Shown: positions 3,951 through 9,317 of the stretch, piece after piece | Layout: every line of letters begins with the position of its first letter | Numbering within the stretch: position 1 is the first letter of the stretch | Assembly: GCA_025924315.1 (NCBI GenBank) | Contig: JAICIO010000004.1 | Location: forward strand, 1 to 64,000 | DNA from: Phycisphaerae bacterium | GTDB taxonomy: Bacteria > Planctomycetota > Phycisphaerae > Tepidisphaerales > Tepidisphaeraceae | Length of the DNA: 64,000 nucleotides | Reading direction: 5' to 3' | Translations under genes and position numbers: made by a program | The notes under the pieces: generated by a model | Told to the model about the DNA's origin: nothing | The model's database searches: none | What the model saw: the letters and a program-made list of their open reading frames with translations, nothing else

Positions 3951-5236
3951 TCCGCAGCGACTCGACGATGAGACAGGTCATCGGTTTGCTGACGTTCGCA
4001 CTGCTGATCGCTGTCACTGCTTGCGCGCAGCCGGTCGACATCACGCGCGTGCATGATCCGTCGATCATCAAAGCCGGTGGCGCTTACTACGTTTTCTCGA
4101 CGGGCATCGGTGTACCGATCCGGCGTTCGACCGACCTTGTGAAATGGGAGCCCCTCGGTCGCGTGTTTGATCGCACGCCCGACTGGGCGCTGAAGACGAT
4201 TCCGGGTGCGCAGCTGGGCATGTGGGCGCCGGATATTTCGTATTACAACGGCCTCTATCATTTGTATTACGCCGTGTCGACCTTCGGCAGCAATCGCTCA
4301 TGCATTGGATTGGCGACGAACAAGACGCTCGATCCGAACAGCCGCGATTATCGGTGGCTCGATCAGGGCATGGTCATCGCGTCGAATGTGAAGAACCGCG
4401 ATGACTGGAACGCGATCGACCCCAATCTCGTGCTCGATGAGAAGGGCCAGCCGTGGCTGGCGTTCGGCTCGTTTTGGAGCGGCATCAAGCTCGTTCGCCT
4501 CGACCGCGCAACGGGCAAACGCGCGGCCGATTCAAACGAAGTGCTCTCGATTGCGAGTCGCGGCGGCGGCCCGATTGAAGCGCCGTTCATCGTTCGCAAA
4601 GGCGAGTACTTTTATCTCTTCGTCTCATTCGACTACTGCTGTCGCGGAAAGGACAGCACGTACAAGATCATGGTCGGCCGATCGAAGCACGTCACCGGCC
4701 CGTATCTCGCGCGCGACGGCAAGGCAATGATGGACGGCGGGGCGACGGCGGTTCTGGCGAGCTACGGCCACGTGCGCGGTCCCGGCCATTGCGCCGTGCT
4801 TCAGGAAAAGGACGGCGATTGGCTCGCGCATCATTTCTACGACGCGGACAACAACGGCAAGCCCGCGCTCCAGGTTCGTCCGCTCGTTTGGACGAACGAT
4901 GGTTGGCCCCTCGCCGGCGAGCCGGTGGCCTATGGGCCGGCGGTGAAGGATCTTTCCGTGCTCGGGCGCTGGGATCATTACGTCGATGACAAAAAAGTAG
5001 ATGCGATCGATCTGCTCGAGAACGGTCACATCAACAAACCGGATGGGAAGGCGACGTGGTCGCTCGATGGACATTCATTGAAGCTGATCTGGCCGCGAAC
5101 GGGTGCGGCAAACGGGACGTGGACGGATGAATGCATCGTCGGCCGCGACGGGAAGTGGTACGCAGGAAGAAACGAGAAAGGCGACCTGATCCGCGGAATT
5201 CGTGTGGATGCGCAAGCGGCTCACGGATCCCAGTGA
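3947..5236 (+). CDS. Glycoside hydrolase family 43 arabinan endo-1,5-alpha-L-arabinosidase
   Basis: A secreted arabinan-degrading enzyme of about 429 residues. A hydrophobic N-terminus ends in AVTAC, a possible lipobox or signal-peptidase region near residue 26. The five-bladed propeller signature is clear: the general base is in HDPS (Asp37), then MWAPDISYYNGLYHLYYAVS, IDPNLVLDEKGQPWLAFGSF, a probable catalytic acid in PIEAPFIV, YYLFVS-like FYLFVSFDYCCRG, and GPGHCAV. These are the hallmarks of endo-arabinanases in GH43. A C-terminal beta domain of about 100 residues follows. The start is chosen at 3947, where ATGA overlaps the copper protein stop; ATG 3968 is an alternative. Its last 16 bases overlap the convergent pseudopilin gene. 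It probably feeds arabinose oligomers to importers such as the ABC system at the left edge. Confidence 0.92.
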   Translation: MIRSDSTMRQVIGLLTFALLIAVTACAQPVDITRVHDPSIIKAGGAYYVFSTGIGVPIRRSTDLVKWEPLGRVFDRTPDWALKTIPGAQLGMWAPDISYYNGLYHLYYAVSTFGSNRSCIGLATNKTLDPNSRDYRWLDQGMVIASNVKNRDDWNAIDPNLVLDEKGQPWLAFGSFWSGIKLVRLDRATGKRAADSNEVLSIASRGGGPIEAPFIVRKGEYFYLFVSFDYCCRGKDSTYKIMVGRSKHVTGPYLARDGKAMMDGGATAVLASYGHVRGPGHCAVLQEKDGDWLAHHFYDADNNGKPALQVRPLVWTNDGWPLAGEPVAYGPAVKDLSVLGRWDHYVDDKKVDAIDLLENGHINKPDGKATWSLDGHSLKLIWPRTGAANGTWTDECIVGRDGKWYAGRNEKGDLIRGIRVDAQAAHGSQ

Positions 5237-6021
5237 AACTCGCCTTCCTGGGCGGGCATGGGATTGAAGATCACGTGGCCGTCAACGAAGCCGATGCTCC
5301 CTTTGTGCGCGTAGTGCCAGTCATATCCCCAATACAAACACGCGTCGAAGAAGAGAACTGTGTTGCTGGCGTCGTGCACTGAGCCGATTTTGACTTCATC
5401 GAGTCCGCCGTCGTGCCGCGGTTGGGGGCGAAGGGGATAGCCGTTGGCGTTGAAGTTGTAGCTGTTGCCAACCCAATCGAACTGACTGTCGGCGGGGTAC
5501 GGCGTGAGATTTGGATCGTAAGTCCACGGCGCATTGTCATCGCACGGGCAGCGGAACATTTCGATCTTTCCGCCGACGTAACGATTGAGCGGCCGTGGGA
5601 CCACGCGGTTGAAGAAGTCGGACTGGTCGAGGTTCTTGTTGCCCGCCTCGCGTCCGCCGTAGGCATACCAATCCATTCCATCGGTATCGAGATCTGCGCC
5701 GCGCCAGAATGCCGTTCCGCGATTGTCGTTGAGATAGGATTGGAAGGCGAAATAAACCTGCCGCAGATTGCTCGCGCAGGCGACGATCTGCGCCGATTGC
5801 CGCGCCCGCTTGAGCGCTGGGAGGAGCAATGACATCAGTACTGCGATGATCGCAATGACAACGATCAGTTCGACAATCGAGAAGGCATGTGGAGACCGGG
5901 AGGGCGAGGCTCCCGCCGAGCCGTCTGCGTCGGATTGATCCGCAGATTTCGCAGATTGCGCAGATTTAGAAAACGGGTTGAATTCGATCTGCGAAAATCT
6001 GCGTAATCTGCGGATCATCAT
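5221..6021 (-). CDS. Pseudopilin-like protein with repeat-derived leader (H-X9-DG type)
   Basis: A type II secretion/pseudopilin-like protein anchored by one N-terminal helix. The methylation-type segment is FSIVELIVVIAIIAVLMSLL with Glu at +5, followed by the usual LLPALKRARQSAQ and CASNLRQVYFAFQSYLNDN. The C-terminus carries HKGSIGFVDGHVIF, matching the H-X9-DG pattern. The start is uncertain: no ATG, GTG or TTG lies in frame between the hydrophobic segment and the nested hairpin at 5897-6049. The first candidates are the paired ATGs at 6021-6016, inside the repeat, giving a leader of about 46 residues against 7-17 in the six other members of this window. An even longer start at 6093 would overlap the upstream sigma-factor gene. 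Expression and processing are therefore doubtful. It overlaps the convergent GH43 gene by 16 bases. Confidence 0.8.
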   Translation of the reverse strand: MMIRRLRRFSQIEFNPFSKSAQSAKSADQSDADGSAGASPSRSPHAFSIVELIVVIAIIAVLMSLLLPALKRARQSAQIVACASNLRQVYFAFQSYLNDNRGTAFWRGADLDTDGMDWYAYGGREAGNKNLDQSDFFNRVVPRPLNRYVGGKIEMFRCPCDDNAPWTYDPNLTPYPADSQFDWVGNSYNFNANGYPLRPQPRHDGGLDEVKIGSVHDASNTVLFFDACLYWGYDWHYAHKGSIGFVDGHVIFNPMPAQEGEFHWDP

Positions 6022-6049
6022 TCGGCTCGGCAGGAGCCTCGCCCTCCCG
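5897..6049. repeat. Nested hairpins at the 5' end of a pseudopilin gene
   Basis: Two different inverted repeats are nested. The outer arms are 5897-5923 (CGGGAGGGCGAGGCTCCCGC and on) and 6023-6049. The inner arms are 5936-5967 (TGATCCGCAGATTTCGCAGA and on) and 5986-6017. The outer unit is the one in the ABC ATPase gene at 9-103. The inner unit itself contains repeated CGCAGATT words. The candidate start codons of the pseudopilin gene fall between the inner and outer right arms. Confidence 0.85.
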
Positions 6050-6068
6050 AAATGAGAATCGCTTGCGA

Positions 6069-8375
6069 TCACGGTTTCTCTGGTCGATGCCACACGCCGG
6101 TGTGCTGGAAGTTACCATTCGCCGTCGCCCATTGCACGAGCTCGGGGCGATACGCCATCTCCGTGCGATAGACAAACACGCGGCCGTCGGTCAGGCCGAA
6201 GATTACCTCCGCCTTTCCATCTCCATCGATATCGCAAATCGTCGGCTGCGTGCTGTTCGTCACCGTCGCGTCGACGATCATCGGCTTGATCGTCGACGTG
6301 CGTGTTTTCGGATCCCACTTGATCCAATACGTGCCGATGAACAAATCGATGATGCCATCGCCGCCCAGGTCCGCGACCGAAATGCCCGAGCCGGGTATGC
6401 GCTCTGTCCAATTAACGGCACTCTCGGTGAGGTCGCTCGCGGGGATCCGTGCGATGGATCCGTTGGGCGAATCGTTGAGCGTCGTGCCATCGCCGTGAAA
6501 CGCGCAGACATCCATCGAGCGCCGATCGTAGACGATGATCTCCGCCTTCCCGTCGCCGTCGAGATCCGCGAGCGTCGGCGAGGTATCGCCCGTCCAGATC
6601 GACTCCTTCAGCACGCCGTCGATCCTGCCGACACGATGCGTACCTGGGGCGGCGGTGCCGTCCGCACGCCACACGTACAGGTCACTCGCGCCGGCGATGA
6701 CTTCCATTTTGTCGTCGCCGCTCACATCGCCCATCACGGGCGCGAAGCCGACTAAGGTCGGCCAGTGGATTGCGTGCCGCCAGTTGGGCAGCTCGTGTCC
6801 GGTTGCATCGTAGCCGACGACGTCACCCTGACTTTGGTTGTAGCTGTTCTTGTCCACGAAGAGGTGAAACACCTCCGGCTTGCCGTCGCCATTCACGTCG
6901 CCGATGCACGGTGCGAAACCACTCACCGTCGCGAGCGGATGCGTCGGCGGCCAGTTCTTGATCGTCCCGCCCTTGACGTTGGTCAGCGCCGCGCCTGTGA
7001 CGATGTCGGCCACGCCATCACCGTCCATATCGACGAGCGGCGCACTCGCCCACTGGCTGCCGCCGTGCATGGTCGTGGCGTTGCCGTTGCGATCAATCAC
7101 GCGCAGGCCGAGAAAGTACGGCGTCGTGATGACGATCTTCGATCCGCCGGCGCCGTCGGAGCAGACGGAAGGACTGCTGTGCCACGAGGGAAGATAAGAC
7201 GACGCATCGCGCCGCTCACGAACCTGCGGATTGACGAGCTCCGCCGGCCAGCCCGGCACGGGTGTGCCGTCGGCATAAAACGCGAACAGCAGCACCGACG
7301 GCGTCGGCGCGTTGTGAACCAGCGAAACGCCCGGCAGCGATTCGCACGGCACGATGATCGCGAGACGCCCGCTGCCATCGAGATCCGCGACGGAAACCGA
7401 TGCGGTGATCGATCCCGGCAGCGCGAGTGGCCAGCCGGGCATGATTGCGGAATTCGCTGGCGATGCGGCGCGCTGGGCCGCCCATGGTTTTCCGGGCGTC
7501 GCTTTCACCACGGCCTGCCCAACACTTGGCGTCAGCCGGACGGCCGGAGGCGCCGCGTGAATGTATGCTTCAACGCCGCACAGGCCCGCGACAATCACGG
7601 TGAGCGCGCCCACCATTGCCGCGACGGCCTTGATCTTCGCCATGGTCATCGCGCGGACCACCGCATCGGCCAGAGAGGCATTGACCGGTGTCTGGCTCAT
7701 CGCGCTGGCGGCGACTTGCGAGGCATGAAGCGGCGCCGAGTGCGTTCCATGCGCCACCAGCAATCCCATCACCGCGCTCGGCGCCATCGTCATCCCCCGG
7801 CGATGCAACCGCTCGCGGAGACTTTGCACCGCACGCGCCACGCGCTTGCGCGCCGCCTCTTCCGATATCCCGAGCGCCGCGCCGACATCCGGAAAACTCT
7901 TCCCTTGATAGAACCGCAGCAGCAGCGCTTCGCGGTCGCGCTGGTTCAGCCGCGCGATCATCTCTTCGACCAGCGGATTCGACTCGAGTGTCCCCGCTTT
8001 GCCGGTGGTTTCCGTGATTTGCTCCGCCATCGCCGACGCCTTTCGCTCGTGATACGCCCGCCGGCGGTTCGCGCGCAGCAACTGCAGGCAGGTGTAGCGC
8101 GTGACCTTAAACAGCCAGGGACTCAAATGATTTTGCCCCGTCAGTCCACTCGCTTTTCGCGCCAGGATGAGAAACACCGTCTGCGCGACATCGTCTGCCA
8201 AATGTGGATCAGCCACCTGCTGACGGGCGGACGAGTGCACCCAGTTCAGGTGCCGCGCGACGAGTTGTGTGAATGCTTGCGCGTCCCCCGCGATGAAGCG
8301 CGACAGCAATTCGCCGTCCGTCGCGACGGAGTCACCGGACAGCTTGGTTGGTGTGGTCGATGTCAGCACCGGCAT
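6069..8375 (-). CDS. Sigma-70 family factor fused to a membrane span and FG-GAP/VCBS propeller
   Basis: A 768-residue fusion. Residues about 22-105 form sigma region 2 (LLSRFIAGDAQAFTQLVARH, then ADDVAQTVFLILARKASG). Residues about 135-190 form region 4, with a helix-turn-helix in FPDVGAALGISEEAARKRVA. A single hydrophobic helix lies at about 248-270 (MVGALTVIVAGLCGVEA). The rest, from about residue 300, has seven clear Ca-binding-like FG-GAP/VCBS units: DLDGSGRL, DMDGDGVADIV, DVNGDGKPEVF, DVSGDDKMEVI, DLDGDGKAEII, DLGGDGIIDLF and DIDGDGKAEVI. This suggests a seven-bladed propeller outside the membrane and a sigma domain inside. ATG 8375 is chosen for a strong GGAGGAGG eight or so bases upstream; the much longer open frame upstream is antisense to other genes. 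Its target promoters and ligand are unknown. Confidence 0.88.
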   Translation of the reverse strand: MPVLTSTTPTKLSGDSVATDGELLSRFIAGDAQAFTQLVARHLNWVHSSARQQVADPHLADDVAQTVFLILARKASGLTGQNHLSPWLFKVTRYTCLQLLRANRRRAYHERKASAMAEQITETTGKAGTLESNPLVEEMIARLNQRDREALLLRFYQGKSFPDVGAALGISEEAARKRVARAVQSLRERLHRRGMTMAPSAVMGLLVAHGTHSAPLHASQVAASAMSQTPVNASLADAVVRAMTMAKIKAVAAMVGALTVIVAGLCGVEAYIHAAPPAVRLTPSVGQAVVKATPGKPWAAQRAASPANSAIMPGWPLALPGSITASVSVADLDGSGRLAIIVPCESLPGVSLVHNAPTPSVLLFAFYADGTPVPGWPAELVNPQVRERRDASSYLPSWHSSPSVCSDGAGGSKIVITTPYFLGLRVIDRNGNATTMHGGSQWASAPLVDMDGDGVADIVTGAALTNVKGGTIKNWPPTHPLATVSGFAPCIGDVNGDGKPEVFHLFVDKNSYNQSQGDVVGYDATGHELPNWRHAIHWPTLVGFAPVMGDVSGDDKMEVIAGASDLYVWRADGTAAPGTHRVGRIDGVLKESIWTGDTSPTLADLDGDGKAEIIVYDRRSMDVCAFHGDGTTLNDSPNGSIARIPASDLTESAVNWTERIPGSGISVADLGGDGIIDLFIGTYWIKWDPKTRTSTIKPMIVDATVTNSTQPTICDIDGDGKAEVIFGLTDGRVFVYRTEMAYRPELVQWATANGNFQHTGVWHRPEKP

Positions 8376-8471
8376 TACGTGACCTCCTCCGACGCACAGC
8401 GGCGGATCTTTGCACATTAAATCGCCGATTCGCGCAGAAGCGGACAGAAATCCGCTAAGATCGTCCGCCGC

Positions 8472-9317
8472 ATGATCATCGACGTTCACAGTCACGCGTG
8501 GGAATATCCGCTCAACTTTGGGGAAAGCTTTCGTCGCCAGGCGATTCGCGCTCGCGCGGGCGTTGAACTGGATTTGACCGTCCGCTACGAAGATTATCGC
8601 GCCGCCTGCCCACCCGACACAAAAACGATCGTCTTTGGCGGAAAGGCTCGCCGCAGCGAGTTGTGGATCGATGATCGCTATATTGCCGATTACGTCGCGA
8701 AACATCCTGACACGCTGGTGGGCTTTCTGTCGGTTGACCCGACGCAGGACGGCTGGGAACGCGAAATGCGCGACGGGCACGAAACGCTCGGCCTCCGCGG
8801 AATCAAGCTGCTTCCGATGTACGCCGGGTTCTTTCCTCACGACGAACGACTTGATCCGCTTTGGAAATACGCGACCGAAAAACAAATCCCTGTGCTGCTG
8901 CACACCGGCACGACGTTCGTCGCGCAAGCGCCGCTCGAATGCACGCTTCCGCGGCACATCGATGCCGTCGCGATGAAGTTCCCCGATGTGAAGATCATCA
9001 TGGCGCACCTCGGCCATCCGTACGAAGGCGAGTGCGTCGCGACGATTCGCAAGCATCCCAATGTCTATGCCGACGTGTCGGCGCTCCACTATCGGCCGTT
9101 TCAGCTTTACCACTCGCTGATGCTCGTGCAGGAGTATGGCGTGTGGAACAAGGTGCTCTTCGGCACCGACTATCCCTTCACGAACGTGAACGATTCGATT
9201 GCCGGCATTCGCAATCTCAACAACATGCTCGAAGGCACGAACCTTCCGCGGTTGAAGAGCGGCGAGATCGAGAAGATGATCCATCGCGACAGCCTGGGCA
9301 TTCTTGGCTTGACCTGA
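8472..9317 (+). CDS. Amidohydrolase-family metal-dependent hydrolase
   Basis: A cytosolic TIM-barrel hydrolase of the Amidohydro_2 type, 281 residues. Metal-binding signatures are MIIDVHSHAWEY (HxH) at the very N-terminus, LLHTGTTF, IIMAHLGHPYEGECVATIRK and the C-terminal FGTDYPFTNVND aspartate. Members of this group include decarboxylases and hydrolases for aromatic or lactone substrates; nothing here fixes the substrate. It is divergent from the sigma-factor gene, with 96 bases between their starts. It ends 14 bases before the next gene, an M19 dipeptidase, so the two are likely one operon. No clear ribosome binding site precedes ATG 8472, but upstream in-frame starts are lacking. Confidence 0.88.
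   Translation: MIIDVHSHAWEYPLNFGESFRRQAIRARAGVELDLTVRYEDYRAACPPDTKTIVFGGKARRSELWIDDRYIADYVAKHPDTLVGFLSVDPTQDGWEREMRDGHETLGLRGIKLLPMYAGFFPHDERLDPLWKYATEKQIPVLLHTGTTFVAQAPLECTLPRHIDAVAMKFPDVKIIMAHLGHPYEGECVATIRKHPNVYADVSALHYRPFQLYHSLMLVQEYGVWNKVLFGTDYPFTNVNDSIAGIRNLNNMLEGTNLPRLKSGEIEKMIHRDSLGILGLT

Follow-up and report, generated by a model that had tools for sequence, protein, structure and literature searches.

A composite palindromic element of 153 nt lies at the 5' end of a type IV pilin-like gene in the window, the 64,000-nt stretch of planctomycete DNA that was analysed, and the only one of its six frames that stays open is the frame used by the pilin. The outer part of the element belongs to a family dispersed over the whole genome, and members of this family are also read in frame inside the genes of RsmB and an Lhr-type helicase. 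We put at about even the chance that the pilin is translated by coupled initiation at GTG 6072 and read-through of the inserted element.

The composite element and the pilin frame

The features are as follows.

5897 to 6049, no strand assigned: composite element of 153 nt, a REPIN-like outer pair whose loop holds a second hairpin
5898 to 5922, plus strand: outer REP unit GGGAGGGCGAGGCTCCCGCCGAGCC, 0 mismatches to the family pattern
6024 to 6048, minus strand: outer REP unit GGGAGGGCGAGGCTCCTGCCGAGCC, 0 mismatches to the family pattern
5936 to 6017, no strand assigned: inner hairpin, a member of the independent dispersed repeat family ATCCGCAGATTNCGCAGATT, whose copies elsewhere are intergenic and about 76 bp long
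5221 to 6072, minus strand: type IV pilin-like ORF from GTG 6072, with PF07963 and TIGR02532 over their curated cut-offs
6070 to 6072, minus strand: candidate start GTG, 63-residue leader, overlapping TGA 6071-6069 of the upstream gene
6016 to 6021, minus strand: candidate starts ATG ATG, 46/45-residue leader, between the outer and inner stems
6069 to 8705, minus strand: upstream gene, a fusion of ECF sigma-70 domains and FG-GAP repeats, with an approximate 5' end (Pfam scan of 6069-8375)

Nested inverted repeats had been predicted here and both were located: outer arms at 5897-5923 and 6023-6049 (27 nt, 96% match) enclose inner arms at 5936-5957 and 5996-6017 (22 nt, 95% match). Folding of the pilin strand gave -120.1 kcal/mol, compared with -64.6 ± 4.9 for shuffled sequences (z -11.4), and 0 of 200 shuffles folded as well. 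The Rfam scan of the element returned only two matches, both to microRNA models and far under the gathering score, and a search for a promoter or intrinsic terminator at the element found neither. One of the three coding-strand frames is open through the element, so retention of the frame would be expected about one time in three by itself.

The pilin ORF scored 22.8 with PF07963 (cut-off 21.2) and 20.4 with TIGR02532 (cut-off 16.3). Its cleavage motif is SPHA/FSIVEL (the slash marks the cut site; F codon 5883-5881), and the Ala at -1, which is acceptable in prepilin processing (PMC10191384), is also found in other pilins of this genome. The ORF is intact, the coding signal of its mature part is kept, and a relative-rate test with two outgroups indicated that this copy was not accelerated (18 v 24 and 26 v 18).

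As the original prediction had stated, ATG, GTG and TTG are all absent between the repeat and the FSIVEL segment, and ATG ATG is present at 6021-6016. These had been taken as the sole start candidates of an ORF at 5221-6021, which has to be corrected to 5221-6072 and is open as far as 6093: in-frame GTG codons at 6072-6070 and 6093 both lie outside the repeat, and the candidates GTG 6093, GTG 6072, ATG 6021 and ATG 6018 give leaders of 70, 63, 46 and 45 residues. The premise that the repeat alone offers a start was thus wrong, because the GTG at 6072, which overlaps the upstream stop, had been overlooked. The placing of ATG ATG inside the repeat holds in a looser sense, as the two codons lie mainly in the short spacer that separates the outer from the inner arms.

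Two families of dispersed repeats

The 25-nt REP core of the outer unit is GGGAGGGCGAGGCTCCYGCCGAGCC. It gave 148 matches in its own genome at up to 3 mismatches and the reversed control pattern gave 0, so the outer unit is not a chance palindrome. There were about 75 dispersed copies of the palindromic repeat of the pilin-leader kind, and the REP copies that were read were mostly inverted pairs, typically 70-77 nt, with loops variable in content and constrained in length. In one REPIN (L173, G000:C36:970-1149), which spans 180 nt, the loop carries another kind of long insert. Among the family genomes, the one with the nearest pilin relative (G020) had 134 REP matches at up to 2 mismatches, and the other 24 had 0 or 1 each. 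The distribution in the phylum is patchy (11 of 392 sampled genomes), the REP was absent from five further genomes, two of them Verrucomicrobia/Limisphaerales, and the 25-nt string was not found in the literature searched.

Two inverted REP units, constrained spacing and high copy number are the properties of REPINs, and all three were found. In the search for RAYT linkage, none of 10 Y1_Tnp matches had a REP within 1.5 kb, and neither the GTAG nor the CGTC end tetranucleotide of the GTAG/CGTC superfamily occurs in the 25-nt core. Because neither of these properties was found, we use the name "REPIN-like" only. The assessment of REPIN sites drew on about 80 loci, in which genes were predicted by a home-made codon-bias caller.

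The inner hairpin is a repeat family separate from the REPIN and lodged in its loop. All 11 inner-only copies examined were intergenic, and 10 of them lay within about 27 nt of a gene 3' end. The inner hairpin was found in a REPIN loop at about six places; the five other composites were mostly intergenic, four of them were near gene 3' ends, and the fifth (L003) had degenerate outer arms.

Pilin relatives, start choice and rival readings

Eight REPIN-free pilin relatives in the class had leaders of 6-19 residues, most with an ATG and a Shine-Dalgarno match, compared with 45-63 residues for the pilin here. The predicted leaders of 7-17 residues in the pilin array were recovered from the nearest plausible ATG of its six members (7, 11, 10, 9, 17 and 11 residues). 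Among 29 pilins analysed in the own genome, most had a start no more than about 21 residues from the cut site; the long-leader exceptions were a paralogue on contig C44 (nearest start at 38) and the pilin at L247 (28).

The C44 copy is the closest pilin paralogue (64%), and it occupies the C-terminal portion of a long ORF (L139:2074-3648) that is coding throughout. This ORF has two apparent membrane segments, lacks the repeat and follows an ECF sigma-fusion gene in the same orientation. A long upstream extension can therefore arise in this subfamily without a REPIN. The shared arrangement also supports the gene order seen here, which bears on the reading that the junction is a false join, made at a high-copy repeat in a draft assembly of 262 contigs. 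We consider such a misassembly very improbable: several contigs do start or stop near a REP, but the 153-nt composite has an interior unlike that of the other copies (at most 89% identical).

The comparison with repeat-free relatives that had been proposed was achieved in part, since pilin relatives with short leaders were obtained and the orthologous sigma-pilin junction minus the repeat was not found. The searches, which covered 26 genomes of the family, 81 relatives and 397 genomes of the class, gave pilin relatives but no such junction; a scan of genome contigs for the empty site gave distant matches only. No sigma gene lay upstream of the G020 and G005 pilin matches, and the remaining relatives were read at the leader only. 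When the flanks of the element were joined without it, an in-frame leader of 12 residues resulted (VIASDSHLSPHA/F). This leader has no Lys or Arg, which is unusual for a prepilin, and one insertion of the family, in RsmB (below), is not base-exact, so the joined leader is only illustrative.

In the most likely course of events, a composite REPIN-like palindrome, in which a second hairpin occupies the loop between two inverted 25-nt REPs, would have been moved by a presumed mobilising enzyme and have landed 19 nt beyond the stop codon of the sigma/FG-GAP gene, at the junction with the co-directional pilin-like gene. The insertion would have displaced or split a short ancestral leader and left the reading frame open. 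Translation of the pilin would most likely start by coupled initiation at GTG 6072, where the Shine-Dalgarno match is weak (-2.9) and the upstream TGA overlaps. Ribosomes would then traverse the hairpin and make a 63-residue leader, about 50 residues of it repeat-encoded, ahead of the A/FSIVEL site; or else the pilin may be poorly expressed.

The latter leads to a second reading, which we consider possible though clearly less probable, that the insertion severed the pilin from its own start and ribosome-binding site, leaving the gene silent or nearly so and the element only a downstream REP of the sigma/FG-GAP gene. The ATG that its relatives have 6-19 residues before the cut site, mostly with a Shine-Dalgarno match, is lost here. 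REPs near gene ends are common in this genome, as they are elsewhere, and REPs at ORF 5' ends are frequently non-coding (PMC3733652). Against silencing, the element can be read in an open frame all the way from the overlapping GTG, the mature part keeps its coding signal and the protein is not accelerated. The arms, however, do not differ from the family pattern, so there may not have been time for decay since the insertion.

A start at ATG ATG within the repeat, as originally predicted, would mean that the repeat supplies the start codon and that the leader has 46 residues. ATG starts are the commonest, and the anti-SD duplex energy over the upstream 20 nt is -5.9; but the purine-rich stretch sits in the outer stem with poor spacing, the codon and its upstream region are buried in the -120 kcal/mol hairpin, and an in-frame GTG exists outside the repeat. 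We regard this start as unlikely, even though a second pilin lends it some support. In that gene (L254/L222, G000:C48:26314-26461, plus strand) a REPIN abuts the hydrophobic segment, and its REP arm differs at a single base, which produces an in-frame TTG with an 8-residue leader, MPSRKQEG/FTLIEL. Cross-matching of pilins and REPs covered 100 of the 148 REP positions and about 80 loci, and within this set at least 2 of 85 pilin motifs abutted a REPIN. We give little credence to the wider idea that REPINs of this lineage are recurrently recruited as pilin leaders, with a mobile palindrome supplying the start codon and signal-peptide leader. From the prediction that the gene acquired a new leader from a mobile repeat, we keep the interruption of the leader by a dispersed and apparently mobile repeat, and the short leaders of REPIN-free relatives; we drop the claim that the repeat necessarily supplies the start.

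In-frame elements in other genes and known systems

By the codon-bias caller, about 13 of 60 evaluable REPIN loci fell within long ORFs that carry coding signal to either side of the REPIN, and several frames were used. Two of these, RsmB and the Lhr-type helicase, were checked by homology; the rest rest on coding signal, some with flanking domain matches. In RsmB, GRARLPPSRLSDRASGSEGASLSQ lies exactly at the REPIN, and nine family relatives are 22 residues shorter there. This net gain of 22 residues does not correspond base for base to the 70-nt element, so the insertion at the pilin junction may likewise be less than clean. In the Lhr-type helicase, alignment with 5v9x sets the 25 query residues at the REPIN (188-212) against only 2. 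Both proteins thus carry repeat-encoded residues in an otherwise conserved sequence, as in RPE-like elements. At another locus (L260:99-2582, G000:C64) a FabF-like ketosynthase runs to its natural end and continues in frame, through a REPIN, into a second ketosynthase-like unit. REPs at ORF N-termini are frequently misannotated as coding (PMC3733652); the REP at the N-terminus of the L153 ORF is probably such a case, and the warning applies to the pilin-leader element too.

REPINs, or REP doublets, are inverted short REPs with a spacer in dispersed copies (Bertels and Rainey 2011, PMC3116915). The elements here resemble them in two inverted short REPs with a spacer, a length of 70-77 nt and numerous dispersed, mainly intergenic copies, but no REP-flanked RAYT was found, the loop may host other hairpins, and about one-fifth of the evaluable copies are in frame in genes. 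A parallel in genes is Opitutus terrae, whose intragenic dimers of GTAG/CGTC repeats encode 20-30 in-frame residues in real genes, also at N-termini (PMC3733652), whereas here the sequence family is another one, without a GTAG/CGTC end, and a composite of about 50 residues lies at a prepilin leader. Rickettsia palindromic elements are likewise in frame in many unrelated genes (PMC10969869, PMC3733652), but they are about 150 bp with a conserved peptide, whereas the elements here use several frames. The pilin itself follows type IV prepilins with class III signal peptides (PMC10191384) in a leader end of Gly/Ala, then F, E at +5 and a hydrophobic stretch, but its leader of 45-63 residues is mostly repeat-encoded, and the other leaders of the genome are mostly up to about 21.

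In-frame intragenic REPs are already known, so the pilin-leader element adds to the oddity of repeats that become protein and is not a new device. A REPIN-like family is read in frame inside many genes of one planctomycete, gene junctions included. This makes testable a route from mobile palindrome to protein sequence, and also the acceptance by prepilin peptidase of long, newly acquired leaders.
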